Origin: Schoenoplectus triqueter | Lineage: Eukaryota; Streptophyta; Magnoliopsida; Poales; Cyperaceae | NCBI GenBank assembly: GCA_964058805.1 | Contig: CAXKVV010000022.1 | Coordinates: 372,001-436,000, forward strand | Direction of reading: 5' to 3' | Length of the DNA: 64,000 bases | In this document: piece by piece, positions 1,795-59,700 of the stretch | How the letters are laid out: the number at the start of each line of letters is the position of its first letter | Position numbering within the stretch: position 1 is the first letter of the stretch | The notes under the pieces: generated by a model | The model's database searches: none | Told to the model about the DNA's origin: nothing | The model's input: only the letters and a program-made list of their open reading frames with translations | Position numbers and translations under genes: made by a program

Positions 1795-2410
1795 GATTGT
1801 GAGATTGAATCGTTCTGTAGTAGATTCATCCACAAAACAGTGAATGTGAACCGTTCTGTAGGTAGGTTCCTTCACTAACACATGCCTCAATGTTAAGCTA
1901 GCTCAGCGCTTCAGGTTTAACATTGTGTGTAATTGTGTTTCCTAGGTTTATGAATCGGCTTAGTGCTTCGAATTCATGATCTAGAAGATCGGTGAGAAGA
2001 AACACGTGGGCCATATCCACCCTTCTCCTGATTCACCAACCTCAAGATCAACCGGCTCAGTGCTTCGAGTTGTATTTTGTGTGATTGGTTGTTGACTAGT
2101 TAAGATTGAACCGTTCTGTAGTAGGTTCATCTTCTAGATCAACGGAGGTCGAGTCGTTCTGTAGTAGACTCACCTCAAGCCCCTCTAAAAAGATTAACCT
2201 GGTTTGTAGTAAGGTTATATCTCGAGGTGGCATAGACTGAACCGATCTGTTTGTAGGTTCGTCTTCCATAGGATAAAGTAGGTCGAGTCGTTCTGTAGTA
2301 GACTCACCTCGAACCCCTTCGATGAGATTAATCTGACCTGTAAGTAAGGTTACCTCTTGAAGCGGTAAAGACTTAACCGATCTGTTTGTAGGTTCGTCTT
2401 CCATGGACCC
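1795..2410. repeat. ~135-bp tandem repeat carrying CCGTTCTGTAGTAGGTTC-type motifs
   Basis: Variants of GAACCGTTCTGTAG followed by TAGGTTC occur at about 1810, 1850, 2108 and 2150. From 2096 to 2404 the repeat becomes regular with a 135-bp period. The minus-strand translation restarts MEDEPTNRSV every 45 residues (residues 1, 46 and a diverged copy at 91). A period divisible by three keeps a 102-codon frame open across about 2.3 copies, but there is no recognisable domain and no start or splice context, so I treat it as a minisatellite rather than a gene. Confidence 0.6.
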
Positions 2411-2720
2411 CTTTTGTGAACCCAGACGACCACTTGACCATCTTTTAACTATACTATTTGCTTCTCTCTTTCAAAGATCCAGAGGTGCCTCGAGGTTAGT
2501 AGCCCAGGGTAATTAACGGTGGGGGCTTGCGCCCACCGGAATCTACAAGAACTCACAATCACTAAAAAACCCCCTGAATGTGCATCCAAATCTCTCTAAA
2601 CGGCAGAATCTGGCCGACACCCAGCAGATGCACGCTCGGGAGGGATCTCCGTGTCCTTCTTCCGCAAACCCATCGCCCAGCGGCGGTGCGGCGGCGCGCG
2701 AAAAAGGGTCGCACAATATG
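2411..2720. other. GC-rich island with a CGGTGGG/CCCACCG hairpin, unassigned
   Basis: This block is clearly more GC-rich than its surroundings. At about 2516-2540 CGGTGGG and CCCACCG flank a short loop and could form a hairpin. From 2600 to 2710 the DNA is GC-rich (GGCGGTGCGGCGGCGCGCG near 2682). It may be a fragment of a transposon or a captured exon. A 97-codon plus-strand ORF starts at 2580, but its second half is hydrophobic translation of AT-rich DNA and matches nothing I recognise. Confidence 0.35.
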
Positions 2721-4287: not shown

Positions 4288-4680
4288 TCATAAGATTCTT
4301 CAATTAACACTTTCATATGAATATTTTACGATGATAATTTTTCCCAAAACATAAGTAAGATGCATTAGATACTGCTATTTAAAAAACTTGTTTGAGTTTT
4401 CAACATTTTTGCCCTCATAACTACACATAATTTCGTGAAAATTAATATAACTACTCCTAATTACGCCTATTATAAAGTTTTCCAGCTAAAACATCGATTT
4501 GAATGTTCTATAACGCTAATTTTGCACAAAGCATAAGCAAGATGTGTTAAAAACTGCTGTTTAAACAAGTTGTTTAGTTTTATGAAATTTTTTGGCCGCA
4601 CAACTACACATAATTTCTTATAAATTAATATAATTACTCCTAAATATGCCTATTGTAAGATTTTCCAATTAAAACTTCGA
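4288..4680 (+). repeat. Left edge of satellite: partial HOR (ranks 6-7 and a chimeric rank 8/1 monomer)
   Basis: Number monomers by rank, with rank 1 at the marker at 4681. The edge contains rank 6 (marker 4316), rank 7 (4498), then directly rank 1 (4681). The monomer carrying the 4681 marker has rank-8 sequence on its left (CTATTGTAAGATTTTCCAAT at about 4650-4670) and rank-1 sequence on its right (CTGCAGCACT from 4691). Similarity to the satellite begins near 4288 with CATAAGATTCTTCAATT. Confidence 0.85.
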
Positions 4681-7600
4681 TATGAATATTCTGCAGCACT
4701 AATTTTGCACAAAACATAAGTACTGCTGTTTAGACAAAGTTGTTTGATCTTTCTAAATTTTTTGACCGCATAACTACACATAATTTCATATATATTAATA
4801 TAATTACTCCTAATTACATCTATTATAAGATTTTTCAATTAACACTCTGATATGAATATTCTACGATGCTAATTTTTCACAAAACATAAGTAAGACGCAT
4901 TAGAAACTGCTATTTTAAAAAGTTGTTTGAGTTTTCAACATTTTTGCCCTCATAACTGCACATAACTTCGTGAAAATTAATATAACTACTCCTACGTACG
5001 CCTATTATAAAGTTGTCTAACTAGAACTTTGATATGAATATTCTATAATGTTAATTTTGCACAAAACATAAGTCAGATGCGTTAAGAACGGCTGTTTAAA
5101 CAAGTTGTTTGGCTTTCTGAAATTTTTTGGCCGCACAACTACACATAATTTCTCATAAATTTTTTGCCTATTATAAGATTTTCCAATTCAAACTTGGATA
5201 TGAATATTCTAAAACACTAATTTTGCACGAAAAACATAAGTAAGATGCATTAAAAACAGCTGTTTAAACAAGTTATTTGAGTTTTTAAAAATCCTTTAGC
5301 TTCGTAACTACACATAATTTCTTACAAATTAATATAATTGCTCCTAAATATGCCTATTGTAAGATTTTCAAATTAAAACTTCGATATGAATATTCTACAA
5401 TACTAATTTTGCACAAAACATAAGTACTGTTGTTTAAACAAGTTGTTTGTTCTTTCCAAATTTCTTGGCCGCATAACTGCACATAATTTCGTATAAATTA
5501 CTATAATTACCCCTAACTACATCTTTCATAAGATTCTTCAATTAACACTTTCATATGAATATTTTACGATGATAATTTTTCCCAAAACATAAGTAAGATG
5601 CATTAGATACTGCTATTTAAAAAACTTGTTTGAGTTTTCAACATTTTTGCCCTCATAACTACACATAATTTCGTGGAAATTAATATAACTACTCCTAATT
5701 TCGCCTATTATAAAGTTTTCCAGCTAAAACATCGATTTGAATGTTCTATAACGCTAATTTTGCACAAAGCATAAGCAAGATGTGTTAAAAACTGCTGTTT
5801 AAACAAGTTGTTTAGCTTTATGAAATTTTTTGGCCGCACAACTACACATAATTTCTTATAAATTAATATAATTACTCCTAAATATGCCTATTGTAAGATT
5901 TTCCAATTAAAACTTCGATATGAATATTCTACAACACTAATTTTTCACAAAACATAAGTAAGATGCATTAATTAAACTGCTGTTTAAATAAGTTGTTTGA
6001 GTTTATGAAAAAAATTTGGCCGCATAACTACATATAATTTCGTGAAAATTAATACAATTACTCCTAATTATGCCTTTAGAAAAATGTTTAGTTTAAACTT
6101 TGATATGAATATTCTATAACGCTAATATTGCACAAAACATAAGTAAGATGCGTTAAAAAATGCTGCATAAATAAGTTTTTTGGCTTTGTGGACATTTTTG
6201 GACGCATAACTACACATCATTTGGTGCAAATTAATATAATTACTCCTAATTATGCCTATTATAAGGTTGTTCATTTAACACTTCAAAATGAATATTTTAG
6301 GGCACTATTTTTCATCAAAACATAAGTAAGATGCATTAGATACTGCTATTTAAAAAAGTTATTTTTTTCAACATTTTTGGCCTCATAACTTTTCATAAAA
6401 ATTAATACAATCACTCCAAATTGTTCCTATTAGTATATTAGCCAAATTAACACTTTGATATGAATATTCTTCGACACTAATTTTGCTCAAGTAGGATGCA
6501 TTACAAAACAGCTGTTTAAACAAGTTGTTTTTATTTTTCAAAAAATTTGGCCGCTTAAGTACACATAATTTCATGAAAATTAATATAATTACTCCTAATT
6601 ATGCCTATTATAAGATTGTCCAATTAACACTCCGATATGAATATCTTACGACACTAATTTTTCATAAAACATAAGTAAGATATATTAGAAACTGCAGTTC
6701 AAACAAGTTGTTTAAGATCTTTAACATTTTTTGACTCATAACTCCATCTAATTTCATGAAAATGAATATAATTACTCTTAATTGTACCTATTAGAAGATT
6801 ATCCAATTAACACTTCGATATGGACATTGTACGACACAAATTTTACACAAAACACAAATAAGATGCATTAAAAACAGTTGTTTGAGTTTTTGAAACTTTT
6901 TGACCGCATAACTACATATAATTTCATGAAAATTAATATAATTAATTCTAATTATGCCTATTATATGATTGTCCAATTAAAACTTAGGCATGAATATTCT
7001 ATGACACTAATTTTGCACAAAATATAAGTAAGATGCATTAGAAACTGTTGTTTAAACAAGTTGTTTATGATTTTAACATTTTTTGCATCAAACCAACACA
7101 TAATTTCGGGCGAATTAATATAATTACTCCTAACTATGTCTATTATAAGATTGTCAAATTAACACTTCGATATGAGTATCATAGGACACTAATTTTTCAT
7201 ATGGCATAAGTAAGATACCTTAGAAATTGCTGTTTAAACAACTTGTTTAACATTTTTAACATTTATTGCCTCACAACGGCACATAATTTCGTTAAAATTA
7301 ATATAATTACTCCTAATTATGCCTATTAGAAAATTATCCAATTAACAATTCGATATGAACATTCTACGACACAAATTTTGCATAAAAATTAAGTAAGATG
7401 CATTAAAACACAGCAGTTTAAACTAGTTGATTGAGTTTTACAATTATTTTGCCTCATAACTACACATAATTTCGTACAAATTAATATAATTACTCCTAAT
7501 TATGCCTATTATATGATTATCAAATTAAAACTTTGATATGAATATTCTATGACGCTAATTTGGCACAAAACATAAGTAAGATGTATTAAAAACTGCTGTT

Positions 7601-8267
7601 CAAACAAGTTATTTGACTTATTTAAAATTTTGGCCCCATAAATACACATAATTTCGTGCAAATTAATATAATTACTGCTAATTATGCCTATTATAAGTTT
7701 CTTCAATTAACACTTTGATATGAATATTCTACGACACTATTTCTTCCCAAAACATAAGTAAGATGCATTAGAAACAGCTATTTAAGAAAGTTTTTTGAGT
7801 ATTTCAATATTTTTGGCCCCATAACTACATATAATTTAGTGAAAATTAATTTGATAAATTCTAATTATGCCTATAAAAAGATTATCTAACTAATACTTCA
7901 ATATGAATATTCTACAACACTAATTCTGCACAAAACATAAGTATGAGGCTTTAAAAACAGCTGTTTTAACAAGTTGTTTGTGTTTTATAAAATTTTTGGA
8001 CGCATAATTACTCATAATTTCTTATAAATTAATATAATTAGTCCTAAGCATGCCTATTATATGATCTTCTAATTAAAACTTTGATATGAATATTCGACGG
8101 CACTAATTTTGCACAAAACATAAGTAAGATGCATTAAAAACAACTGTTCAAACAAGTTATTTGAGTTTTTCAAAAAATTTAGCTGCGTAACTACACATAA
8201 TTTCTTATAAATTAATATAATTACTCCTAAATATGCCTATTATAAGATTTTCAAATTAAAACTTCGA
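4681..8267 (+). repeat. HOR unit 1 (3,587 bp)
   Basis: First complete 20-monomer unit. Private variants include AATTTTTCAC in place of AATTTTGCAC near 5939. Shared only with unit 2 are TGTTCTTTCC near 5449 and GCTGTTCAAACAAG near 7597. Confidence 0.93.
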
Positions 8268-11200
8268 TATGAATATTCTGCAGCACTAATTTTGCACAAA
8301 ACATAAGTACTGCTGTTTAGACAAAGTTGTTTGATCTTTCTAAATTTTTTGACCGCATAACTGCACATAATTTCATATATATTAATATAATTACTCCTAA
8401 TTACATCTATTATAAGATTTTTCAATTAACACTCTGATATGAATATTCTACGATGCTAATTTTTCACAAAACATAAGTAAGACGCATTAGAAACTGCTAT
8501 TTTAAAAAGTTGTTTGAGTTTTCAACATTTTTGCCCTCATAACTGCACATAACTTCGTGAAAATTAATATAACTACTCCTACGTACGCCTATTATAAAGT
8601 TGTCTAACTAGAACTTTGATATGAATATTCTATAATGTTAATTTTGCACAAAACATAAGTCAGATGCGTTAAGAACGGCTGTTTAAACAAGTTGTTTGGC
8701 TTTCTGAAATTTTTTGGCCGCACAACTACACATAATTTCTCATAAATTTTTTGCCTATTATAAGATTTTCCAATTCAAACTTGGATATGAATATTCTAAA
8801 ACACTAATTTTGCACGAAAAACATAAGTAAGATGCATTAAAAACAGCTGTTTAAACAAGTTATTTGAGTTTTTAAAAATCCTTTAGCTTCGTAACTACAC
8901 ATAATTTCTTACAAATTAATATAATTGCTCCTAAATATGCCTATTGTAAGATTTTCAAATTAAAACTTCGATATGAATATTCTACAATACTAATTTTGCA
9001 CAAAACATAAGTACTGTTGTTTAAACAAGTTGTTTGTTCTTTCCAAATTTCTTGGCCGCATAACTGCACATAATTTCGTATAAATTACTATAATTACCCC
9101 TAACTACATCTTTCATAAGATTCTTCAATTAACACTTTCATATGAATATTTTACGATGATAATTTTTCCCAAAACATAAGTAAGATGCATTAGATACTGC
9201 TATTTAAAAAACTTGTTTGAGTTTTCAACATTTTTGCCCTCATAACTACACATAATTTCGTGGAAATTAATATAACTACTCCTAATTTCGCCTATTATAA
9301 AGTTTTCCAGCTAAAACATCGATTTGAATGTTCTATAACGCTAATTTTGCACAAAGCATAAGCAAGATGTGTTAAAAACTGCTGTTTAAACAAGTTGTTT
9401 AGCTTTATGAAATTTTTTGGCCGCACAACTACACATAATTTCTTATAAATTAATATAATTACTCCTAAATATGCCTATTGTAAGATTTTCCAATTAAAAC
9501 TTCGATATGAATATTCTACAACACTAATTTTGCACAAAACATAAGTAAGATGCATTAATTAAACTGCTGTTTAAATAAGTTGTTTGAGTTTATGAAAAAA
9601 ATTTGGCCGCATAACTACATATAATTTCGTGAAAATTAATACAATTACTCCTAATTATGCCTTTAGAAAAATGTTTAGTTTAAACTTTGATATGAATATT
9701 CTATAACGCTAATATTGCACAAAACATAAGTAAGATGCGTTAAAAAATGCTGCATAAATAAGTTTTTTGGCTTTGTGGACATTTTTGGACGCATAACTAC
9801 ACATCATTTGGTGCAAATTAATATAATTACTCCTAATTATGCCTATTATAAGGTTGTTCATTTAACACTTCAAAATGAATATTTTAGGGCACTATTTTTC
9901 ATCAAAACATAAGTAAGATGCATTAGATACTGCTATTTAAAAAAGTTATTTTTTTCAACATTTTTGGCCTCATAACTTTTCATAAAAATTAATACAATCA
10001 CTCCAAATTGTTCCTATTAGTATATTAGCCAAATTAACACTTTGATATGAATATTCTTCGACACTAATTTTGCTCAAGTAGGATGCATTACAAAACAGCT
10101 GTTTAAACAAGTTGTTTTTATTTTTCAAAAAATTTGGCCGCTTAAGTACACATAATTTCATGAAAATTAATATAATTACTCCTAATTATGCCTATTATAA
10201 GATTGTCCAATTAACACTCCGATATGAATATCTTACGACACTAATTTTTCATAAAACATAAGTAAGATATATTAGAAACTGCAGTTCAAACAAGTTGTTT
10301 AAGATCTTTAACATTTTTTGACTCATAACTCCATCTAATTTCATGAAAATGAATATAATTACTCTTAATTGTACCTATTAGAAGATTATCCAATTAACAC
10401 TTCGATATGGACATTGTACGACACAAATTTTGCACAAAACACAAATAAGATGCATTAAAAACAGTTGTTTGAGTTTTTGAAACTTTTTGACCGCATAACT
10501 ACATATAATTTCATGAAAATTAATATAATTAATTCTAATTATGCCTATTATATGATTGTCCAATTAAAACTTAGGCATGAATATTCTATGACACTAATTT
10601 TGCACAAAATATAAGTAAGATGCATTAGAAACTGTTGTTTAAACAAGTTGTTTATGATTTTAACATTTTTTGCATCAAACCAACACATAATTTCGGGCGA
10701 ATTAATATAATTACTCCTAACTATGTCTATTATAAGATTGTCAAATTAACACTTCGATATGAGTATCATAGGACACTAATTTTTCATATGGCATAAGTAA
10801 GATACCTTAGAAATTGCTGTTTAAACAACTTGTTTAACATTTTTAACATTTATTGCCTCACAACGGCACATAATTTCGTTAAAATTAATATAATTACTCC
10901 TAATTATGCCTATTAGAAAATTATCCAATTAACAATTCGATATGAACATTCTACGACACAAATTTTGCATAAAAATTAAGTAAGATGCATTAAAACACAG
11001 CAGTTTAAACTAGTTGATTGAGTTTTACAATTATTTTGCCTCATAACTACACATAATTTCGTACAAATTAATATAATTACTCCTAATTATGCCTATTATA
11101 TGATTATCAAATTAAAACTTTGATATGAATATTCTATGACGCTAATTTGGCACAAAACATAAGTAAGATGTATTAAAAACTGCTGTTCAAACAAGTTATT

Positions 11201-11854
11201 TGACTTATTTAAAATTTTGGCCCCATAAATACACATAATTTCGTGCAAATTAATATAATTACTGCTAATTATGCCTATTATAAGTTTCTTCAATTAACAC
11301 TTTGATATGAATATTCTACGACACTATTTCTTCCCAAAACATAAGTAAGATGCATTAGAAACAGCTATTTAAGAAAGTTTTTTGAGTATTTCAATATTTT
11401 TGGCCCCATAACTACATATAATTTAGTGAAAATTAATTTGATAAATTCTAATTATGCCTATAAAAAGATTATCTAACTAATACTTCAATATGAATATTCT
11501 ACAACACTAATTCTGCACAAAACATAAGTATGAGGCTTTAAAAACAGCTGTTTTAACAAGTTGTTTGTGTTTTATAAAATTTTTGGACGCATAATTACTC
11601 ATAATTTCTTATAAATTAATATAATTAGTCCTAAGCATGCCTATTATATGATCTTCTAATTAAAACTTTGATATGAATATTCGACGGCACTAATTTTGCA
11701 CAAAACATAAGTAAGATGCATTAAAAACAACTGTTCAAACAAGTTATTTGAGTTTTTCAAAAAATTTAGCTGCGTAACTACACATAATTTCTTATAAATT
11801 AATATAATTACTCCTAAATATGCCTATTATAAGATTTTCAAATTAAAACTTCGA
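8268..11854 (+). repeat. HOR unit 2 (3,587 bp)
   Basis: Complete unit with the same length and monomer order as unit 1. It shares TGTTCTTTCC (near 9037) and GCTGTTCAAACAAG (near 11184) with unit 1 but not with units 3-5. Confidence 0.93.
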
Positions 11855-14800
11855 TATGAATATTCTGCAGCACTAATTTTGCACAAAACATAAGTACTGC
11901 TGTTTAGACAAAGTTGTTTGATCTTTCTAAATTTTTTGACCGCATAACTGCACATAATTTCATATATATTAATATAATTACTCCTAATTACATCTATTAT
12001 AAGATTTTTCAATTAACACTCTGATATGAATATTCTACGATGCTAATTTTTCACAAAACATAAGTAAGACGCATTAGAAACTGCTATTTTAAAAAGTTGT
12101 TTGAGTTTTCAACATTTTTGCCCTCATAACTGCACATAACTTCGTGAAAATTAATATAACTACTCCTACGTACGCCTATTATAAAGTTGTCTAACTAGAA
12201 CTTTGATATGAATATTCTATAATGTTAATTTTGCACAAAACATAAGTCAGATGCGTTAAGAACGGCTGTTTAAACAAGTTGTTTGGCTTTCTGAAATTTT
12301 TTGGCCGCACAACTACACATAATTTCTCATAAATTTTTTGCCTATTATAAGATTTTCCAATTCAAACTTGGATATGAATATTCTAAAACACTAATTTTGC
12401 ACGAAAAACATAAGTAAGATGCATTAAAAACAGCTGTTTAAACAAGTTATTTGAGTTTTTAAAAATCCTTTAGCTTCGTAACTACACATAATTTCTTACA
12501 AATTAATATAATTGCTCCTAAATATGCCTATTGTAAGATTTTCAAATTAAAACTTCGATATGAATATTCTACAATACTAATTTTACACAAAACATAAGTA
12601 CTGTTGTTTAAACAAGTTGTTTGCTCTTTCCAAATTTCTTGGCCGCATAACTGCACATAATTTCGTATAAATTACTATAATTACCCCTAACTACATCTTT
12701 CATAAGATTCTTCAATTAACACTTTCATATGAATATTTTACGATGATAATTTTTCCCAAAACATAAGTAAGATGCATTAGATACTGCTATTTAAAAAACT
12801 TGTTTGAGTTTTCAACATTTTTGCCCTCATAACTACACATAATTTCGTGGAAATTAATATAACTACTCCTAATTTCGCCTATTATAAAGTTTTCCAGCTA
12901 AAACATCGATTTGAATGTTCTATAACGCTAATTTTGCACAAAGCATAAGCAAGATGTGTTAAAAACTGCTGTTTAAACAAGTTGTTTAGCTTTATGAAAT
13001 TTTTTGGCCGCACAACTACACATAATTTCTTATAAATTAATATAATTACTCCTAAATATGCCTATTGTAAGATTTTCCAATTAAAACTTCGATATGAATA
13101 TTCTACAACACTAATTTTGCACAAAACATAAGTAAGATGCATTAATTAAACTGCTGTTTAAATAAGTTGTTTGAGTTTATGAAAAAAATTTGGCCGCATA
13201 ACTACATATAATTTCGTGAAAATTAATACAATTACTCCTAATTATGCCTTTAGAAAAATGTTTAGTTTAAACTTTGATATGAATATTCTATAACGCTAAT
13301 ATTGCACAAAACATAAGTAAGATGCGTTAAAAAATGCTGCATAAATAAGTTTTTTGGCTTTGTGGACATTTTTGGACGCATAACTACACATCATTTGGTG
13401 CAAATTAATATAATTACTCCTAATTATGCCTATTATAAGGTTGTTCATTTAACACTTCAAAATGAATATTTTAGGGCACTATTTTTCATCAAAACATAAG
13501 TAAGATGCATTAGATACTGCTATTTAAAAAAGTTATTTTTTTCAACATTTTTGGCCTCATAACTTTTCATAAAAATTAATACAATCACTCCAAATTGTTC
13601 CTATTAGTATATTAGCCAAATTAACACTTTGATATGAATATTCTTCGACACTAATTTTGCTCAAGTAGGATGCATTACAAAACAGCTGTTTAAACAAGTT
13701 GTTTTTATTTTTCAAAAAATTTGGCCGCTTAAGTACACATAATTTCATGAAAATTAATATAATTACTCCTAATTATGCCTATTATAAGATTGTCCAATTA
13801 ACACTCCGATATGAATATCTTACGACACTAATTTTTCATAAAACATAAGTAAGATATATTAGAAACTGCAGTTCAAACAAGTTGTTTAAGATCTTTAACA
13901 TTTTTTGACTCATAACTCCATCTAATTTCATGAAAATGAATATAATTACTCTTAATTGTACCTATTAGAAGATTATCCAATTAACACTTCGATATGGACA
14001 TTGTACGACACAAATTTTGCACAAAACACAAATAAGATGCATTAAAAACAGTTGTTTGAGTTTTTGAAACTTTTTGACCGCATAACTACATATAATTTCA
14101 TGAAAATTAATATAATTAATTCTAATTATGCCTATTATATGATTGTCCAATTAAAACTTAGGCATGAATATTCTATGACACTAATTTTGCACAAAATATA
14201 AGTAAGATGCATTAGAAACTGTTGTTTAAACAAGTTGTTTATGATTTTAACATTTTTTGCATCAAACCAACACATAATTTCGGGCGAATTAATATAATTA
14301 CTCCTAACTATGTCTATTATAAGATTGTCAAATTAACACTTCGATATGAGTATCATAGGACACTAATTTTTCATATGGCATAAGTAAGATACCTTAGAAA
14401 TTGCTGTTTAAACAACTTGTTTAACATTTTTAACATTTATTGCCTCACAACGGCACATAATTTCGTTAAAATTAATATAATTACTCCTAATTATGCCTAT
14501 TAGAAAATTATCCAATTAACAATTCGATATGAACATTCTACGACACAAATTTTGCATAAAAATTAAGTAAGATGCATTAAAACACAGCAGTTTAAACTAG
14601 TTGATTGAGTTTTACAATTATTTTGCCTCATAACTACACATAATTTCGTACAAATTAATATAATTACTCCTAATTATGCCTATTATATGATTATCAAATT
14701 AAAACTTTGATATGAATATTCTATGACGCTAATTTGGCACAAAACATAAGTAAGATGTATTAAAAACTGCTGTTTAAACAAGTTATTTGACTTATTTAAA

Positions 14801-15441
14801 ATTTTGGCCCCATAAATACACATAATTTCGTGCAAATTAATATAATTACTGCTAATTATGCCTATTATAAGTTTCTTCAATTAACACTTTGATATGAATA
14901 TTCTACGACACTATTTCTTCCCAAAACATAAGTAAGATGCATTAGAAACAGCTATTTAAGAAAGTTTTTTGAGTATTTCAATATTTTTGGCCCCATAACT
15001 ACATATAATTTAGTGAAAATTAATTTGATAAATTCTAATTATGCCTATAAAAAGATTATCTAACTAATACTTCAATATGAATATTCTACAACACTAATTC
15101 TGCACAAAACATAAGTATGAGGCTTTAAAAACAGCTGTTTTAACAAGTTGTTTGTGTTTTATAAAATTTTTGGACGCATAATTACTCATAATTTCTTATA
15201 AATTAATATAATTAGTCCTAAGCATGCCTATTATATGATCTTCTAATTAAAACTTTGATATGAATATTCGACGGCACTAATTTTGCACAAAACATAAGTA
15301 AGATGCATTAAAAACAACTGTTCAAACAAGTTATTTGAGTTTTTCAAAAAATTTAGCTGCGTAACTACACATAATTTCTTATAAATTAATATAATTACTC
15401 CTAAATATGCCTATTATAAGATTTTCAAATTAAAACTTCGA
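11855..15441 (+). repeat. HOR unit 3 (3,587 bp)
   Basis: Complete unit. It is intermediate: like units 4-6 it has TGCTCTTTCC (near 12622), and like units 4-5 it has GCTGTTTAAACAAG (near 14770). Like units 1-2 it keeps AAAAAATGCTGC (near 13330) and GATAAATTCTAATTA (near 15027). Confidence 0.93.
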
Positions 15442-18400
15442 TATGAATATTCTGCAGCACTAATTTTGCACAAAACATAAGTACTGCTGTTTAGACAAAG
15501 TTGTTTGATCTTTCTAAATTTTTTGACCGCATAACTGCACATAATTTCATATATATTAATATAATTACTCCTAATTACATCTATTATAAGATTTTTCAAT
15601 TAACACTCTGATATGAATATTCTACGATGCTAATTTTTCACAAAACATAAGTAAGACGCATTAGAAACTGCTATTTTAAAAAGTTGTTTGAGTTTTCAAC
15701 ATTTTTGCCCTCATAACTGCACATAACTTCGTGAAAATTAATATAACTACTCCTACGTACGCCTATTATAAAGTTGTCTAACTAGAACTTTGATATGAAT
15801 ATTCTATAATGTTAATTTTGCACAAAACATAAGTCAGATGCGTTAAGAACGGCTGTTTAAACAAGTTGTTTGGCTTTCTGAAATTTTTTGGCCGCACAAC
15901 TACACATAATTTCTCATAAATTTTTTGCCTATTATAAGATTTTCCAATTCAAACTTGGATATGAATATTCTAAAACACTAATTTTGCACGAAAAACATAA
16001 GTAAGATGCATTAAAAACAGCTGTTTAAACAAGTTATTTGAGTTTTTAAAAATCCTTTAGCTTCGTAACTACACATAATTTCTTACAAATTAATATAATT
16101 GCTCCTAAATATGCCTATTGTAAGATTTTCAAATTAAAACTTCGATATGAATATTCTACAATACTAATTTTGCACAAAACATAAGTACTGTTGTTTAAAC
16201 AAGTTGTTTGCTCTTTCCAAATTTCTTGGCCGCATAACTGCACATAATTTCGTATAAATTACTATAATTACCCCTAACTACATCTTTCATAAGATTCTTC
16301 AATTAACACTTTCATATGAATATTTTACGATGATAATTTTTCCCAAAACATAAGTAAGATGCATTAGATACTGCTATTTAAAAAACTTGTTTGAGTTTTC
16401 AACATTTTTGCCCTCATAACTACACATAATTTCGTGGAAATTAATATAACTACTCCTAATTTCGCCTATTATAAAGTTTTCCAGCTAAAACATCGATTTG
16501 AATGTTCTATAACGCTAATTTTGCACAAAGCATAAGCAAGATGTGTTAAAAACTGCTGTTTAAACAAGTTGTTTAGCTTTATGAAATTTTTTGGCCGCAC
16601 AACTACACATAATTTCTTATAAATTAATATAATTACTCCTAAATATGCCTATTGTAAGATTTTCCAATTAAAACTTCGATATGAATATTCTACAACACTA
16701 ATTTTGCACAAAACATAAGTAAGATGCATTAATTAAACTGCTGTTTAAATAAGTTGTTTGAGTTTATGAAAAAAATTTGGCCGCATAACTACATATAATT
16801 TCGTGAAAATTAATACAATTACTCCTAATTATGCCTTTAGAAAAATGTTTAGTTTAAACTTTGATATGAATATTCTATAACGCTAATATTGCACAAAACA
16901 TAAGTAAGATGCGTTAAAAATTGCTGCATAAATAAGTTTTTTGGCTTTGTGGACATTTTTGGACGCATAACTACACATCATTTGGTGCAAATTAATATAA
17001 TTACTCCTAATTATGCCTATTATAAGGTTGTTCATTTAACACTTCAAAATGAATATTTTAGGGCACTATTTTTCATCAAAACATAAGTAAGATGCATTAG
17101 ATACTGCTATTTAAAAAAGTTATTTTTTTCAACATTTTTGGCCTCATAACTTTTCATAAAAATTAATACAATCACTCCAAATTGTTCCTATTAGTATATT
17201 AGCCAAATTAACACTTTGATATGAATATTCTTCGACACTAATTTTGCTCAAGTAGGATGCATTACAAAACAGCTGTTTAAACAAGTTGTTTTTATTTTTC
17301 AAAAAATTTGGCCGCTTAAGTACACATAATTTCATGAAAATTAATATAATTACTCCTAATTATGCCTATTATAAGATTGTCCAATTAACACTCCGATATG
17401 AATATCTTACGACACTAATTTTTCATAAAACATAAGTAAGATATATTAGAAACTGCAGTTCAAACAAGTTGTTTAAGATCTTTAACATTTTTTGACTCAT
17501 AACTCCATCTAATTTCATGAAAATGAATATAATTACTCTTAATTGTACCTATTAGAAGATTATCCAATTAACACTTCGATATGGACATTGTACGACACAA
17601 ATTTTGCACAAAACACAAATAAGATGCATTAAAAACAGTTGTTTGAGTTTTTGAAACTTTTTGACCGCATAACTACATATAATTTCATGAAAATTAATAT
17701 AATTAATTCTAATTATGCCTATTATATGATTGTCCAATTAAAACTTAGGCATGAATATTCTATGACACTAATTTTGCACAAAATATAAGTAAGATGCATT
17801 AGAAACTGTTGTTTAAACAAGTTGTTTATGATTTTAACATTTTTTGCATCAAACCAACACATAATTTCGGGCGAATTAATATAATTACTCCTAACTATGT
17901 CTATTATAAGATTGTCAAATTAACACTTCGATATGAGTATCATAGGACACTAATTTTTCATATGGCATAAGTAAGATACCTTAGAAATTGCTGTTTAAAC
18001 AACTTGTTTAACATTTTTAACATTTATTGCCTCACAACGGCACATAATTTCGTTAAAATTAATATAATTACTCCTAATTATGCCTATTAGAAAATTATCC
18101 AATTAACAATTCGATATGAACATTCTACGACACAAATTTTGCATAAAAATTAAGTAAGATGCATTAAAACACAGCAGTTTAAACTAGTTGATTGAGTTTT
18201 ACAATTATTTTGCCTCATAACTACACATAATTTCGTACAAATTAATATAATTACTCCTAATTATGCCTATTATATGATTATCAAATTAAAACTTTGATAT
18301 GAATATTCTATGACGCTAATTTGGCACAAAACATAAGTAAGATGTATTCTATGACGCTAACTGCTGTTTAAACAAGTTATTTGACTTATTTAAAATTTTG

Positions 18401-19036
18401 GCCCCATAAATACACATAATTTCGTGCAAATTAATATAATTACTGTTAATTATGCCTATTATAAGTTTCTTCAATTAACACTTTGATATGAATATTCTAC
18501 GACACTATTTCTTCCCAAAACATAAGTAAGATGCATTAGAAACAGCTATTTAAGAAAGTTTTTTGAGTATTTCAATATTTTTGGCCCCATAACTACATAT
18601 AATTTAGTGAAAATTAATTTGATAAATCCTAATTATGCCTATAAAAAGATTATCTAACTAATACTTCAATATGAATATTCTACAACACTAATTCTGCACA
18701 AAACATAAGTATGAGGCTTTAAAAACAGCTGTTTTAACAAGTTGTTTTGTGTTTTATAAAATTTTTGGACGCATAATTACTCATAATTTCTTATAAATTA
18801 ATATAATTAGTCCTAAGCATGCCTATTATATGATCTTCTAATTAAAACTTTGATATGAATATTCGACGGCACTAATTTTGCACAAAACATAAGTAAGATG
18901 CATTAAAAACAACTGTTCAAACAAGTTATTTGAGTTTTTCAAAAAATTTAGCTGCGTAACTACACATAATTTCTTATAAATTAATATAATTACTCCTAAA
19001 TATGCCTATTATAAGATTTTCAAATTAAAACTTCGA
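15442..19036 (+). repeat. HOR unit 4 (3,595 bp) with an 8-bp net insertion
   Basis: This unit is 8 bp longer than units 1-3. In its rank-17 monomer (about 18346-18361) the usual ATTAAAAACTGCTG is replaced by ATTCTATGACGCTAACTGCTG, where ATTCTATGACGCTAA is a copy of sequence about 40 bp upstream in the same monomer (18305-18319). That adds 7 bp. A T-run near 18746 adds one more. The change removes the short ORF that appears at the same place in the other units. Confidence 0.92.
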
Positions 19037-22000
19037 TATGAATATTCTGCAGCACTAATTTTGCACAAAACATAAGTACTGCTGTTTAGACAAAGTTGTT
19101 TGATCTTTCTAAATTTTTTGACCGCATAACTGCACATAATTTCATATATATTAATATAATTACTCCTAATTACATCTATTATAAGATTTTTCAATTAACA
19201 CTCTGATATGAATATTCTACGATGCTAATTTTTCACAAAACATAAGTAAGACGCATTAGAAACTGCTATTTTAAAAAGTTGTTTGAGTTTTCAACATTTT
19301 TGCCCTCATAACTGCACATAACTTCGTGAAAATTAATATAACTACTCCTACGTACGCCTATTATAAAGTTGTCTAACTAGAACTTTGATATGAATATTCT
19401 ATAATGTTAATTTTGCACAAAACATAAGTCAGATGCGTTAAGAACGGCTGTTTAAACAAGTTGTTTGGCTTTCTGAAATTTTTTGGCCGCACAACTACAC
19501 ATAATTTCTCATAAATTTTTTGCCTATTATAAGATTTTCCAATTCAAACTTGGATATGAATATTCTAAAACACTAATTTTGCACGAAAAACATAAGTAAG
19601 ATGCATTAAAAACAGCTGTTTAAACAAGTTATTTGAGTTTTTAAAAATCCTTTAGCTTCGTAACTACACATAATTTCTTACAAATTAATATAATTGCTCC
19701 TAAATATGCCTATTGTAAGATTTTCAAATTAAAACTTCGATATGAATATTCTACAATACTAATTTTGCACAAAACATAAGTACTGTTGTTTAAACAAGTT
19801 GTTTGCTCTTTCCAAATTTCTTGGCCGCATAACTGCACATAATTTCGTATAAATTACTATAATTACCCCTAACTACATCTTTCATAAGATTCTTCAATTA
19901 ACACTTTCATATGAATATTTTACGATGATAATTTTTCCCAAAACATAAGTAAGATGCATTAGATACTGCTATTTAAAAAACTTGTTTGAGTTTTCAACAT
20001 TTTTGCCCTCATAACTACACATAATTTCGTGGAAATTAATATAACTACTCCTAATTTCGCCTATTATAAAGTTTTCCAGCTAAAACATCGATTTGAATGT
20101 TCTATAACGCTAATTTTGCACAAAGCATAAGCAAGATGTGTTAAAAACTGCTGTTTAAACAAGTTGTTTAGCTTTATGAAATTTTTTGGCCGCACAACTA
20201 CACATAATTTCTTATAAATTAATATAATTACTCCTAAATATGCCTATTGTAAGATTTTCCAATTAAAACTTCGATATGAATATTCTACAACACTAATTTT
20301 GCACAAAACATAAGTAAGATGCATTAATTAAACTGCTGTTTAAATAAGTTGTTTGAGTTTATGAAAAAAATTTGGCCGCATAACTACATATAATTTCGTG
20401 AAAATTAATACAATTACTCCTAATTATGCCTTTAGAAAAATGTTTAGTTTAAACTTTGATATGAATATTCTATAACGCTAATATTGCACAAAACATAAGT
20501 AAGATGCGTTAAAAATTGCTGCATAAATAAGTTTTTTGGCTTTGTGGACATTTTTGGACGCATAACTACACATCATTTGGTGCAAATTAATATAATTACT
20601 CCTAATTATGCCTATTATAAGGTTGTTCATTTAACACTTCAAAATGAATATTTTAGGGCACTATTTTTCATCAAAACATAAGTAAGATGCATTAGATACT
20701 GCTATTTAAAAAAGTTATTTTTTTCAACATTTTTGGCCTCATAACTTTTCATAAAAATTAATACAATCACTCCAAATTGTTCCTATTAGTATATTAGCCA
20801 AATTAACACTTTGATATGAATATTCTTCGACACTAATTTTGCTCAAGTAGGATGCATTACAAAACAGCTGTTTAAACAAGTTGTTTTTATTTTTCAAAAA
20901 ATTTGGCCGCTTAAGTACACATAATTTCATGAAAATTAATATAATTACTCCTAATTATGCCTATTATAAGATTGTCCAATTAACACTCCGATATGAATAT
21001 CTTACGACACTAATTTTTCATAAAACATAAGTAAGATATATTAGAAACTGCAGTTCAAACAAGTTGTTTAAGATCTTTAACATTTTTTGACTCATAACTC
21101 CATCTAATTTCATGAAAATGAATATAATTACTCTTAATTGTACCTATTAGAAGATTATCCAATTAACACTTCGATATGGACATTGTACGACACAAATTTT
21201 GCACAAAACACAAATAAGATGCATTAAAAACAGTTGTTTGAGTTTTTGAAACTTTTTGACCGCATAACTACATATAATTTCATGAAAATTAATATAATTA
21301 ATTCTAATTATGCCTATTATATGATTGTCCAATTAAAACTTAGGCATGAATATTCTATGACACTAATTTTGCACAAAATATAAGTAAGATGCATTAGAAA
21401 CTGTTGTTTAAACAAGTTGTTTATGATTTTAACATTTTTTGCATCAAACCAACACATAATTTCGGGCGAATTAATATAATTACTCCTAACTATGTCTATT
21501 ATAAGATTGTCAAATTAACACTTCGATATGAGTATCATAGGACACTAATTTTTCATATGGCATAAGTAAGATACCTTAGAAATTGCTGTTTAAACAACTT
21601 GTTTAACATTTTTAACATTTATTGCCTCACAACGGCACATAATTTCGTTAAAATTAATATAATTACTCCTAATTATGCCTATTAGAAAATTATCCAATTA
21701 ACAATTCGATATGAACATTCTACGACACAAATTTTGCATAAAAATTAAGTAAGATGCATTAAAACACAGCAGTTTAAACTAGTTGATTGAGTTTTACAAT
21801 TATTTTGCCTCATAACTACACATAATTTCGTACAAATTAATATAATTACTCCTAATTATGCCTATTATATGATTATCAAATTAAAACTTTGATATGAATA
21901 TTCTATGACGCTAATTTGGCACAAAACATAAGTAAGATGTATTAAAAACTGCTGTTTAAACAAGTTATTTGACTTATTTAAAATTTTGGCCCCATAAATA

Positions 22001-22624
22001 CACATAATTTCGTGCAAATTAATATAATTACTGTTAATTATGCCTATTATAAGTTTCTTCAATTAACACTTTGATATGAATATTCTACGACACTATTTCT
22101 TCCCAAAACATAAGTAAGATGCATTAGAAACAGCTATTTAAGAAAGTTTTTTGAGTATTTCAATATTTTTGGCCCCATAACTACATATAATTTAGTGAAA
22201 ATTAATTTGATAAATCCTAATTATGCCTATAAAAAGATTATCTAACTAATACTTCAATATGAATATTCTACAACACTAATTCTGCACAAAACATAAGTAT
22301 GAGGCTTTAAAAACAGCTGTTTTAACAAGTTGTTTTGTGTTTTATAAAATTTTTGGACGCATAATTACTCATAATTTCTTATAAATTAATATAATTAGTC
22401 CTAAGCATGCCTATTATATGATCTTCTAATTAAAACTTTGATATGAATATTCGACGGCACTAATTTTGCACAAAACATAAGTAAGATGCATTAAAAATAA
22501 CTGTTCAAACAAGTTATTTGAGTTTTTCAAAAAATTTAGCTGCGTAACTACACATAATTTCTTATAAATTAATATAATTACTCCTAAATATGCCTATTAT
22601 AAGATTTTCAAATTAAAACTTCGA
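19037..22624 (+). repeat. HOR unit 5 (3,588 bp)
   Basis: Complete unit. It shares the extra T near 22335, ATTACTGTTAATTATG (near 22029) and GATAAATCCTAATTA (near 22207) with unit 4, but it lacks unit 4's templated insertion. Confidence 0.93.
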
Positions 22625-24226
22625 TATGAATATTCTGCAGCACTAATTTTGCACAAAACATAAGTACTGCTGTTTAGACAAAGTTGTTTGATCTTTCTAA
22701 ATTTTTTGACCGCATAACTGCACATAATTTCATATATATTAATATAATTACTCCTAATTACATCTATTATAAGATTTTTCAATTAACACTCTGATATGAA
22801 TATTCTACGATGCTAATTTTTCACAAAACATAAGTAAGACGCATTAGAAACTGCTATTTTAAAAAGTTGTTTGAGTTTTCAACATTTTTGCCCTCATAAC
22901 TGCACATAACTTCGTGAAAATTAATATAACTACTCCTACGTACGCCTATTATAAAGTTGTCTAACTAGAACTTTGATATGAATATTCTATAATGTTAATT
23001 TTGCACAAAACATAAGTCAGATGCGTTAAGAACGGCTGTTTAAACAAGTTGTTTGGCTTTCTGAAATTTTTTGGCCGCACAACTACACATAATTTCTCAT
23101 AAATTGATATAACTACTCCTCAATATGCTTATTATAAGATTTTCCAATTCAAACTTGGATATGAATATTCTAAAACACTAATTTTGCACGAAAAACATAA
23201 GTAAGATGCATTAAAAACAGCTGTTTAAACAAGTTATTTGAGTTTTTAAAAATCCTTTAGCTTCGTAACTACACATAATTTCTTACAAATTAATATAATT
23301 GCTCCTAAATATGCCTATTGTAAGATTTTCAAATTAAAACTTCGATATGAATATTCTACAATACTAATTTTGCACAAAACATAAGTACTGTTGTTTAAAC
23401 AAGTTGTTTGCTCTTTCCAAATTTCTTGGCCGCATAACTGCACATAATTTCGTATAAATTACTATAATTACCCCTAACTACATCTTTCATAAGATTCTTC
23501 AATTAACACTTTCATATGAATATTTTACGATGATAATTTTTCCCAAAACATAAGTAAGATGCATTAGATACTGCTATTTAAAAAACTTGTTTGAGTTTTC
23601 AACATTTTTGCCCTCATAACTACACATAATTTCGTGGAAATTAATATAACTACTCCTAATTTCGCCTATTATAAAGTTTTCCAGCTAAAACATCGATTTG
23701 AATGTTCTATAACGCTAATTTTGCACAAAGCATAAGCAAGATGTGTTAAAAACTGCTGTTTAAACAAGTTGTTTAGCTTTATGAAATTTTTTGGCCGCAC
23801 AACTACACATAATTTCTTATAAATTAATATAATTACTCCTAAATATGCCTATTGTAAGATTTTCCAATTAAAACTTCGATATGAATATTCTACAACACTA
23901 ATTTTGCACAAAACATAAGTAAGATGCATTAATTAAACTGCTGTTTAAATAAGTTGTTTAAGTTTATGAAAAAAATTTGGCCGCATAACTACATATAATT
24001 TCATGAAAATTAATACAATTACTCCTAATTATGCCTTTAGAAAAATGTTTAGTTTAAACTTTGATATGAATATTCTATAACGCTAATATTGCACAAAACA
24101 TAAGTAAGATGCGTTAAAAATTGCTGCATAAATAAGTTTTTTGGCTTTGTGGACATTTTTGGACGCATAACTACACATCATTTGGTGCAAATTAATATAA
24201 TTACTCCTAATTATGCCTATTATAAG
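22625..24226 (+). repeat. Right edge of satellite: partial HOR unit 6 (ranks 1-10)
   Basis: The sixth unit stops inside rank 10 at TATAAG (24221-24226), where the sequence switches to gypsy integrase. Its rank-4 monomer (about 23090-23135) is full length (AAATTGATATAACTACTCCT). All five complete units carry a deletion of about 17 bp there (AAATTTTTTGCC), so this edge copy seems to keep the ancestral form. Confidence 0.9.
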
Positions 24227-26320
24227 ATTATTCCATCAAATGAAATTATGGATGGTTTTTGATAAGATAGAGGCCAACGCTTCGGTCTCTACCCATTTGG
24301 TGAAATATTTAGTCTCAACGAATATGTATTTCCTCTGTCAAGCAGCTACTAGAAAAGGTCCGAGCAAGTCGATGCTCCATAATTCGAAGGGTCATGCTTC
24401 GAAAATGAAGACCATCTCATATGGGGGTATACGAAAGATCTTGCTATTATGTTGGCACTTTTTGCACATTTGAACTAATGTCGTTACATCCATCTTCAAG
24501 GCTGGCTACTAAAACTCTGCCATGAGGATTCTTTTGCCCAATATTTTGCTCCTTGTTGGTTGCCGCAGATACCTCTGTGGACTTCCACTAATATTTCTCG
24601 GATCTTGATTTTCACCACACATTTCAACCAAGACTACAAAGAATCATCGCTTTTATATCTTGTATCCCAAATATAATACATCAGAGCCAACCTTTAAATT
24701 TTTCTCGCTTTAAGTTTGTCAACCGGTAGTTCTCTAGAAATTAAAAAATCGCCACATGAGAGTGTACAATTCTTCCTCAACTGATATGTCAGTGATGACA
24801 AAAAATGACTAAGCATGTCTACGCTTGGATGAGGGACATCCATGATAATAATGGGTTTTTTCTCGTCAAGTCTTTCTAAAGCTGCCAGCTTCGAGAGTGC
24901 ATCTGCAAGGGTATTCCTTCTTCAAGGTACATATTGGATTTGTACTTTTCCGAAATCTAATGTTAGGGCCATCAAATTCTCTTTGTATCTTGCTAGCATG
25001 TCATCTAGCACTCTAGTCTTGTCATTCACCTGCATGATTGCTAACTGAGAGTCACTGAACATGTTGACTTCTCGAGCTCTGACCTCCTTAGCTATTCGGA
25101 GACCTGCAATCATAGCCTCATATTTGACTATATTGTTAATAGCGAAGAACAAGAGATGAAGTGCGTAATTCAATACTTCTCATTTTGAATCCCTCAATGT
25201 AATACCTACTTCGGCTCCTGCTACGGAAGATGCACCATGATGTAGAGCTCCCAATTCTCATCCCACTTATCTATAGGGTTTGAATACTCAGCAATGAAGT
25301 CGGTCAGAATCTCTAGCTTTATGGTTATCCTTGGGTGGAAATGAGATGTCAAATTTTGAGAGCTCGAGGCCCACCCCAAGAGTCTTCCAGATGCATTGTA
25401 ATTGAAAGGCACCTTTCTCAGCAGGAGTCCCGTGAGGATCTGAATGGGCCTAGAAATAGGGCCTCAACTTCCATACTGCAATGATCAAGACATAGACGGT
25501 CTTCTTGATAGGCGGGTATATGGTTTTGACGTCCTTAAGGATGTGAGAAATAAAGTATATAGGGCGTTATTGTTTGTCCTCTTCTCGAACTAAGGCGGCG
25601 CTGATAGCATGGTCCACAACTGCCAAATACAAGAGTGATGAATCATCGATGGCTAGTCATGTTAGGAAAGGTGGATTTGATAAGTACTGCTTGATTTTTT
25701 TTCAAACGCCTTTGCGCACTGAACAGTCCATTCAAATTGTACATACTTGCGCATTGCCTTAAAGAAGGGAAGACATACTTCATTGGAATAAGTAATAAAT
25801 TGGTTAAGACCTATCAATTTCCCTATGAGTGGCTGAAGTTCCTTCAGATTTTTTGGTGGTGTCATGTTGAAAATGGTTTTGTAACGTGATGGATATCTTT
25901 TATAAAACTCAGATTTAAGGTACTGTATAAGGTCTCCTTATCGAAAGATCTTTTCGAGAATATCTCAAAGTTACATGCAATCCTCTATGGAGTGTCCCTT
26001 AGAGCGATGATACTAGCAATAACTGTTCTCATCCCAGATTTTAAACACACATATGTCTATTGGTCTCGGTAATTCGAACCTATAGCTGATGAGTTTAAGG
26101 AGATCTTGAGTTGGTTGATCAAACTAGGCAAAAAGATAAAATACAGCTTGCATCTGAGATCATCATTGTACCCTCATTTCTTGTGGTTGTCACCGCGCTC
26201 ATCATTATGGGAGTCACCTAGTTGATTTTCTCTCCTGGATAAATTATAATTTATCTTATCTTTTGGAGATTGAGACCTCCAACTCCTTCGAATTGGTTCA
26301 GTGTTCTCCTCTCCTCTCAT
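24226..26320 (-). pseudogene. Ty3/gypsy pol remnant (RT, RNase H, second RNase H, truncated integrase), Tat-like
   Basis: Read on the minus strand, this is a decayed gypsy polyprotein with stops and frameshifts. From the RT/RNase H side: a segment matching the RT-connection region (PPKNLKELQPLIGKLIGLN, then CLPFFKAMRK, 25662-25865); RNase H-like blocks (KLRPYF, ADFIAEYS-like, 25220-25480); a second RNase H-type block (KYEAMIAGLRIAKEVRA, then FSDSQLAIMQVN, 24922-25130); and an integrase start (CKKCQHNS zinc-finger half, FELWSIDLLGPFLVA, YFTKWVETEALA, 24240-24480) containing at least two in-frame stops. The extra RNase H before integrase is characteristic of the plant Tat group. The integrase is cut off at the satellite junction, so the rest of integrase and the 3' LTR are missing. 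The plus-strand ORFs over this stretch are shadows. Confidence 0.85.
26313..26320. repeat. Left 8-bp target-site duplication of the hAT element
   Basis: CCTCTCAT immediately precedes the hAT terminus at 26321 and is repeated exactly at 30612-30619. An 8-bp duplication is the hAT hallmark. Confidence 0.95.
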
Positions 26321-33670: not shown

Positions 33671-33780
33671 AATTAACTGTTTTGAAACCACATAAAATGT
33701 TTATATGCTTTTTACGGTATAAGTAAAGAAGAAAGATATAGCTGCAAAATAAAGAATTGAGAACTGATAGAAATATACGT

Positions 33781-36206: not shown

Positions 36207-36224
36207 ATCTTGTTTACGTGAAAA

Positions 36225-59459: not shown

Positions 59460-59700
59460 TAAGAAGAGAGACACGGATGGAGAAGAAATGGAAAAAAAAG
59501 AAGAAGAGGGCCTTCAGAGAAAAAGTATGAGAGATTTGGAGGAAAGGAGAAGAAAGGAGACAAGGGAACGGCTGGAGAAGAGAGGAAGGTTAAGGAAGAG
59601 AAGGAAAGAGGCCATGACCACGGCGAAGGGAGAAATTGGATGCCGTTGGAAATGGGAAGGATGACCTTGGCCTCTTGCCTGGTAAGAGTTGGGAGGGGAG
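59460..59700 (-). promoter_or_regulatory. Pyrimidine-rich leader/promoter of the PP2-A13-like gene
   Basis: On the minus strand the 200 bp upstream of ATG 59459 are strongly CT-rich (seen on the plus strand as GAAGAAATGGAAAAAAAAGA and similar). CT-rich tracts are common in plant core promoters and 5' leaders. The purine-rich complement produces long spurious plus-strand ORFs (59290-59664). Confidence 0.5.

Follow-up and report, generated by a model that had tools for sequence, protein, structure and literature searches.

The window analysed here is a 64,000-nucleotide stretch, free of N, of a sedge contig of 1,009,016 bp (C22), and the satellite array within it is internal to that contig. With nhmmer, the array forms one block in which 112 monomers of about 180 bp follow one another head to tail, all on the plus strand and never separated by as much as 100 bp, and the monomer consensus is 74% A+T. 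The dispersed element to its left, which starts TGTGCGACCC, also adjoins satellite arrays on contigs C328 and C1994, and the fragments at its right edge look like Ty3/gypsy by reading of the ORFs alone. Two intact genes had been noted nearby, of which one was verified: the F-box and PP2 exons belong to a single PP2-A13-type gene about 33 kb from the array, which groups with Rhynchospora and then Juncus when 14 of the 120 listed proteins are used and so places the plant, at family level, among the sedges. A search for RNA genes gave no Rfam match at the gathering threshold in the window.

Table 1. Positions of features in the 64,000-nucleotide window
Feature	Position	Strand	Basis
Satellite array, 112 monomers	4288..24236	+	nhmmer, consensus
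Irregular left edge	4288..4720	+	rank best matches, unit comparison
HOR unit 1, 3585 bp	4368..7952	+	landmark
HOR unit 2, 3587 bp; reference for ranks 0-19	7953..11539	+	landmark
HOR unit 3, 3587 bp	11540..15126	+	landmark
HOR unit 4, 3594 bp; rank 17 longer than in unit 3 (186 against 179 bp)	15127..18720	+	landmark
HOR unit 5, 3588 bp	18721..22308	+	landmark
Partial unit 6; rank 4 as 186-bp form at 23027-23212	22309..24236	+	landmark, nhmmer
Unit 2, ranks 1-4 against ranks 5-8: internal four-monomer duplication, 83-90% identity	8138..9557	+	
Unit 2, rank 4 (169 bp), source of locus-specific 40-mer	8670..8838	+	
Dispersed-element copy, starts TGTGCGACCC	1942..2715	-	
Decayed retroelement-like ORF fragments, right edge of array	24237..25937	-	
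PP2-A13-type F-box gene; exons 57768-58283 (PP2) and 59034-59513 (F-box)	57768..59513	-	

How are the monomers arranged? Landmark spacing gives monomer lengths of 164-187 bp and a higher-order repeat (HOR) of 20 monomers and 3,587 bp, with the unit starts and successive periods listed in Table 1. The 3.59-kb periodicity is also present in the exact 24-mer distances of the window, where 3,587, 3,588 and 3,595 bp are all frequent. Monomers 20 positions apart share a mean identity of 0.992 (90 pairs), while the remaining lags from 1 to 22 give 0.726-0.769, with neighbours at 73%; at lags of 40, 60 and 80 monomers, identity is 0.98-0.99. Judged by its size, the contrast between lag 20 and the other lags is too large for chance. 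Monomers of the same rank have mean identities of 0.91-1.00 within the array and cluster by rank across arrays as well, in the tree clades described below, and units 2-5 are separated by 2-7 substitutions. Copies of the unit are therefore far closer to one another than are the diverged monomers inside it, as in a HOR satellite. The 20-monomer HOR is confirmed as the repeat unit, and the array is best read as nuclear satellite DNA of a sedge. The landmark periods and the lag-20 identity thus bear out the original prediction of a 20-monomer, 3,587-bp HOR in a plant, with monomers that differ within a unit and are near-identical at the same rank. Its details shift slightly: the start at 4288 holds while the end moves from 24226 to 24236, the monomer range of 166-186 bp was nearly right, and the periods of 3,587 and 3,588 bp recur, with the 3,595 bp given for unit 4 becoming 3,594 with the present landmark.

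Inside the unit lies an older structure, a four-monomer duplication in which ranks 1-4 are pairwise 90, 88, 87 and 83% identical to ranks 5-8, and the array has irregular edges. Units 1 and 2 differ by 64 substitutions, 61 of them in the first two monomers (4368-4666); the leftmost monomers match ranks 6, 7 and 8 best and the next one jumps to rank 2, and in the last, partial unit the 186-bp form of rank 4 replaces the 169-bp form. Could the array be an assembly artefact, a collapse or a false expansion? Units of 3.6 kb that are almost identical pose difficulties for assembly, and the copy number may be wrong, but the units carry private substitutions and lengths, the edges are irregular, the contig continues through the array, and other contigs hold HORs of other types that keep the same order of monomers; we consider this explanation extremely improbable.

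Satellite matches occur in at least 41 contigs, and arrays of about 5-60 kb lie on many of them. HOR types vary by array, from 4-mers (732 bp) up to 18-mers (about 3.2 kb), and the 20-mer of the window is the longest resolved. A 40-mer taken from rank 4 has five matches in 82 Mb of the genome at up to three mismatches, all five in the window array. An exception to such array-specific HORs is a 13-mer common to C2047, C1337 and C328 (96-100% identity), whose arrays may be alleles or copies. Contig C22 itself carries one array at 376-396 kb and another, with no clear HOR, that begins at 994.5 kb; the satellite had no match in any of 20 tiles of 1 kb sampled from 10 to 315 kb, and sampling of 436-990 kb was confined to 660.8-664.1 kb. 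A GC-rich 58-bp satellite adjoins arrays of the present, 183-bp satellite on C1070 and C95 and lies within about 2 kb of them on C2062 and C44. It seems to be some three times commoner than the 183-bp satellite, a rough estimate calibrated on 983 monomers per 129 pattern hits in 20 stretches picked for matching and, for the 58-bp repeat, on 110 hits in three arrays. Among sequences printed in the text of 5.39 million open papers, none of six 20-23-letter monomer stretches (three and their complements) and none of six 17-19-letter stretches of the 58-bp satellite was found. A query aimed at the CENH3 gene gave three genome matches, one of which (L038) looks like canonical H3; given this small number of H3 genes, the assembly may be partial or an alternate haplotype.

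Transposable elements might carry or spread the arrays, as has been proposed for Tyba and for TCR helitrons, which gives a precedent (passage of PMC11579429). Five of the 13 compared array edges adjoin one of two dispersed elements, which start TGTGCGACCC or TGTTTAC/TGGTTAC. By our reading, however, the element ends resemble LTR starts placed at differing monomer positions, as expected from insertion into satellite; the other eight edges have no common element at the junction, and the short flanks compared contained no element enclosing an array. We regard carriage or spread by elements as very improbable.

Where does the 20-mer come from? One order of monomer types is common to several HORs: two 18-mers, one HOR of 14 monomers, a 13-mer, an 11-mer and the 20-mer of the window. 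The 18-mer of C1849 and the HOR of C2062b are linked by reciprocal best hits for 12 of 18 monomers, all 12 at the same position; against C1849, the 13-mer of C1337 gives 13 of 13 reciprocal best hits in order and the 11-mer of C383 eight of eight. Compared with C1849, C2062b and C134 in turn, the window has reciprocal best hits for 10 of its 20 monomers, nine of the 10 in order, a number reached in none of 1000 shuffles; the rank consensuses used here comprise at most three copies each. A second order test, on the best hits of 16 of the 20 window ranks (ranks 4-7 left out), places 11 in order in each of two comparisons, with C1849 and with C2062b, unequalled in 2000 permutations each. Order was not significant between the window and C383 (five of six, p 0.17), nor against a second superfamily (window-C655, p 0.48; window-C315, p 0.17; C1849-C315, p 0.47). 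The HORs examined from the first superfamily, A, agree in their monomer order. This agreement, the presence of many other HORs of the satellite beside the 20-mer, and the reading of the 20-mer as derived from an 18-mer go beyond the original prediction.

A tree of 108 rank consensuses took in eight of the 11 HORs (all save C315, C1070 and C2084); its supports are SH-aLRT values, and 60 of its 105 inner branches fall below 80. Window ranks 0-3, 5-7 and 9-19 join their 18-mer counterparts with supports of 80-99, the fork of rank 18 also containing rank 10, while ranks 4 and 8 lie outside the clade of the 18-mers' fourth monomer. The sixth monomer of C383 goes to that fourth monomer in the tree and to 17 by best hit. 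Two further clades, X (support 99) and Y (97), contain C1849, C2062b, C1337, C383 and C134 and lack the window. Taking structure and origin together, the window array is very probably a 20-mer HOR whose unit derives from an 18-monomer HOR. Reciprocal best hits and the tree point to an 18-mer as the source of one whole superfamily, its ancestral status resting on parsimony, and the 13- and 11-mers elsewhere read as its deletion derivatives. At the window locus, the 18-mer would have lost two neighbouring monomers (X and Y), monomers 1-4 would have been duplicated in tandem to give 5-8, and the resulting 20-mer would have been amplified and homogenised. Out-of-register recombination between copies probably produced these changes, whether as unequal exchange, as gene conversion or through break-induced replication, and variants presumably survived at the array edges.

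Do these arrays act as centromeres? Cyperaceae are largely holocentric. By analogy with Tyba of Rhynchospora, the window array may be, or may recently have been, a CENH3-loading site and hence one unit of a dispersed holocentromere, to which we give slightly less than an even chance. The analogy draws on size: the array spans 19.9 kb, and Tyba arrays of R. breviuscula have a median size of 17.4 kb at a median spacing of 355 kb (passages of PMC10954556). A non-centromeric heterochromatic satellite (knob, interstitial or subtelomeric), with HORs since locally recombining arrays tend to form them, is a serious possibility whose probability falls just below one half. Non-centromeric tandem arrays of Salicaceae are likewise HOR-organised (passages of PMC12046899), and the 183-bp arrays have the 58-bp repeat beside or near them. 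The apparently greater abundance of that repeat also weakens a centromere role, as do the lack of a CENP-B box (no exact match to NTTCGNNNNANNCGGGN on either strand of the array), of an excess of DNA hairpins in the array, and of a clear HOR at 994.5 kb on C22. Arrays of the centromeric satellite of Luzula sylvatica argue in the same direction, averaging 20 kb without CENH3 and 94-189 kb with it (passages of PMC11538461). Yet the A+T-rich monomer of about 180 bp, the elements at array edges and the proximity of a 20-kb array to a gene fit holocentromere units about equally well and are not decisive. Caution over a centromere role, already voiced in the original prediction, is warranted: the present evidence neither proves nor refutes it. 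More tentatively, with a probability somewhat under one half, there could be a holocentromere of dozens of small HOR sites (about 5-60 kb). Homogenisation would be local at most of them, each keeping its own HOR, and the HORs of one superfamily would all stem from a single 18-mer. If so, the array-specific HOR evolution of megabase human centromeres would run in parallel at many small sedge sites.

Is the satellite a diverged Tyba, the 172-bp holocentromeric satellite of Rhynchospora? Host and size resemble those of Tyba, at plant-family level: a sedge, a monomer of about 180 bp and a window array within some 15-25 kb. Two Tyba pieces also align in the same order by eye. The Tyba forward primer, though, has no match at up to three mismatches in 82 Mb, two primers and two provisional probe pieces align to the monomer no better than shuffles (p 0.22-0.88), and a composite gives p 0.63 and 0.47, with about 140 Tyba letters compared in all, 93 of them provisional. 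Identity with Tyba thus yields no signal in the pieces compared, and we judge it unlikely; the literature passages covered describe no Tyba HOR.

Long HORs are mostly discussed for large primate centromeres. Among plants, satellites of Sorghum and switchgrass are also HOR-organised, with units of three or more monomers rarely identified, read length being limiting, against 20 in the sedge window; the longest switchgrass units, of 792, 886 and 1,131 bp, hold six full monomers at most, with or without a further truncated one (passages of PMC4053949). Carex CR1-CR3, compared by description, are sedge tandem repeats on all chromosomes, some with higher-order periods, but have monomers of 29-31 bp and, for CR1, periods of at most 248 bp (passages of PMC9526063). 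Like the window array, primate alpha satellite has HORs of many diverged monomers in near-identical unit copies, up to 34 monomers in human, and like the sedge arrays it has chromosome-specific units, short HORs from a longer one and disordered edge monomers (passages of PMC8997354). Unlike it, the sedge array lacks the CENP-B box, and instead of one megabase array per chromosome there are many contigs with arrays of about 5-60 kb; no sequence kinship is claimed. Array-specific HORs derived from a common HOR were found, and by analogy, not membership, their evolution by duplication and deletion resembles that of alpha satellite. If the arrays bind CENH3, long HORs would form in holocentric chromosomes and homogenisation would act within single 20-kb units. 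The many small arrays of this single plant genome preserve a readable history of duplication and deletion of the alpha-satellite kind and offer replicate natural experiments on the birth, spread and replacement of HORs.

The original prediction of a 20-monomer, 3,587-bp higher-order repeat (HOR) in the window is borne out by three kinds of evidence. Within the window's first 25 kb, exact 24-mers repeat at 3,587 bp and its multiples; among 111 monomer starts placed by a single landmark, identity is maximal at a lag of 20 and its multiples (0.992 at lag 20, 90 pairs; 0.733 between neighbours, 109 pairs); and units 2-5 are nearly identical, with 2 to 7 substitutions per pair over ~3,587 bp. The array proposed at 4288..24226 is likewise real, with its end now moved to 24236. 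Tandem Repeats Finder reports periods of 183 and 365 bp for it. Units 1 and 2 are separated by 64 substitutions, 61 of which fall in the two leading monomers of unit 1. The partial sixth unit at the right edge, which differs from units 2-5 by 10-12 substitutions over ~1,910 bp, carries rank 4 (ranks 0-19 give monomer position, unit 2 being the reference) in a longer form. A rank-4 40-mer has five matches in the 82-Mb assembly, every one inside the window array. How might such an array arise? One unit would have been amplified locally, leaving variant or shuffled forms at the array edges. Unequal exchange or break-induced replication, both modelled for HOR arrays in excerpts of PMC8997354, would yield this pattern, and the sequence fits either.

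Pooling the places listed by several searches, the 183-bp satellite was matched on at least 41 of the 2,086 contigs, and monomers were read on 16 contigs, in the window array and 19 further pieces no longer than 10 kb (20 stretches altogether). A rank-15 marker was found at 464 places across the assembly, against none for a control pattern; the 100 matches listed fall on 19 contigs, 15 of which have several places, with spacing that is mostly regular and contig-specific. On contig C22 (1,009,016 bp), where the window occupies 372001-436000, the satellite was absent outside the array from one-kb tiles at 10-315 kb (0/20 matching) and gave no match at 362-372 kb or 660.8-664.1 kb. At 994.5-1000 kb the same contig carries what is apparently an old or decayed array, in which comparing the 183-bp monomers by lag reveals no clear HOR (best 0.728) and some 20-mer words repeat at 2,245-2,256 bp.

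The window's 3,587 bp is the longest unit among the resolved HORs. An array of the larger superfamily on C360 has rank-15 marker steps of 1,238, 1,274, 3,750 and 3,787 bp, a possible sign of a composite HOR; 1,238 bp is a frequent distance in the window too. On C1994, monomer lags bring out no clear HOR (best 0.767), although its 20-mer words repeat at ~730 and 3,237 bp. The C95 piece holds just 8 monomers.

Features, repeat types and shared monomer order (C, contig; L, stretch; G000, whole assembly)
Feature	Location	Detail
20-mer HOR	window array	
18-mer HORs	C1849, C2062	
14 called monomers + remainder	C134	2,597 bp
13-mer HOR	C2047, C1337, C328	
11-mer HOR	C383	
14-mer HOR	C315	
7-mer HORs	C655, C1070, C1635, C2065	
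4-mer HOR	C2084	
Rank-15 marker spacing	C430, C598, C1147	2,707-2,713 bp
Rank-15 marker spacing	C532	2,744-2,747 bp
Rank-15 marker spacing	C759	3,093 bp
Rank-15 marker spacing	C461, C1411	3,217 bp
Rank-15 marker spacing	C1613	3,247 bp
Rank-15 marker spacing	C993, C930	3,267 bp
Superfamily-A array	G000:C360:19715-32275	
Array without clear HOR	L018:4476-9999 (C22:994.5-1000 kb)	
Reciprocal best hits in order	C1849/C2062	12/12
Reciprocal best hits in order	C1337/C1849	13/13
Reciprocal best hits in order	C383/C1849	8/8
Reciprocal best hits in order	window/C1849	9/10
Reciprocal best hits in order	window/C2062	9/10
Reciprocal best hits in order	window/C134	9/10
Reciprocal best hits in order	window/C1337	8/9, p 0.001
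Reciprocal best hits in order	C134/C1849	7/8, p 0.01
58-bp satellite next to 183-bp arrays	L032:1-4977, L029:1-4901, L027:2-1432	
Dispersed element	window 1942-2715, L023 from 9242, L026 from 9282	same element, pieces 92-98% identical
135-bp tandem repeat	window 2102-2404	overlapped by dispersed element
hAT-type transposase	window 27306-29276	two open pieces, one stop between
131-bp tandem repeat	window 33773-34237	3.6 copies
Paired tandem repeat	window 31847-31898, 39561-39612	7,714 bp apart
Retrotransposon integrase piece	window 36222-36755	between the paired repeats
PP2 exon	window 57768-58283	Pfam PF14299

Within the larger superfamily, best matches between arrays fall by rank. Reciprocal best hits of order-sharing pairs average 0.87-0.90 in identity, compared with a median of 0.75-0.78 over all pairs; the window/C383 order (5/6, p 0.17) is not significant. 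Monomers also cluster by rank in a quick IQ-TREE tree of 108 rank consensuses, in which 23 of 105 inner branches reach 95 or more and 60 are drawn open. On this tree, the window unit reads as monomers 0-3, a fourth monomer and 9-19, minus X and Y (two neighbouring 18-mer monomers) and plus a second copy of 1-4. Among the HORs compared there, C134 appears most closely related to the window unit, since six of the unit's ranks or rank pairs cluster with a monomer from it (supports 87-96). C134 retains X and Y; the window's loss of them would therefore be later. C1337 is without five 18-mer monomers (3, 4, 9, 10 and 11) and C383 without seven, and C328 passes from 13-mer units to a stretch in 18-mer order near 26-28 kb (20-mer word distances, 3,247-3,261 bp).

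The 7-mers form a second superfamily, in which C655 and C2065 share order at 7/7 (p 0.002). C655 and C315 also match at 7/7, C315 looking like a doubled form. Reciprocal best hits gave no significant common order between the two superfamilies.

What adjoins these arrays? Five of the 13 compared edges directly adjoin one of two dispersed elements (C328, C1994; C655, C95, C2062), whose ends look like LTR starts. Copies of a dispersed element sit near or at three array edges (window, L023 and L026). Elsewhere in the window, the paired tandem repeat flanking an integrase piece may represent the LTR pair of a single element. A GC-rich 58-bp satellite was found in 4 of 60 loci, representing three places (C1070, C95, C2062), where it adjoins the 183-bp array or is within ~1 kb; on C44 it begins at 24.4 kb, by coordinates ~1.5 kb or less from such an array. 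None lies beside the window array. With 52,154 pattern matches in the assembly, it amounts very roughly to 5.4 Mb versus ~1.8 Mb for the 183-bp satellite, both calibrated on few arrays, and may be the predominant satellite, competing with the 183-bp repeat as a centromere candidate.

The plant is most likely a sedge (Cyperaceae), judging from the identities and tree position of the PP2 exon. Among the matches listed, Rhynchospora pubera is the closest named relative and Juncus effusus the next named species (88.7% and 72% identity; 65-72% for nine other monocots; 133-142 aligned residues). In a tree of 15 sequences, including 14 relatives chosen from 120 listed, the exon groups with R. pubera and three other proteins, Juncus next (support 97 for the six). 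Sedges are largely holocentric, according to excerpts of PMC10959549, PMC11583847 and PMC10879424, two of which mention exceptions.

Excerpts of PMC4053949 describe plant satellite HORs as common, units of at least three monomers as rarely identified in Sanger data, and switchgrass HORs as reaching six monomers; Carex CR1 satellite periods reach 248 bp in excerpts of PMC9526063. Excerpts of PMC10264360, PMC12046899, PMC12371157, PMC12722358, PMC11538461 and PMC5049389 were also drawn on. Among the open-access papers listed, judged by title and abstract start, none dealt with long HORs in a sedge; HORs in Tyba, the 172-bp holocentromeric satellite of Rhynchospora, may already be published. Comparison of Tyba pieces with the monomer and the genome gave no sequence support for identity with the 183-bp satellite. 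By analogy, a centromere role for the window array is a tentative reading, to which we give slightly less than an even chance: according to excerpts of PMC10954556 and PMC11579429, the array resembles a Tyba-type holocentromere unit in array size (19.9 kb here), monomer length, base composition and family.
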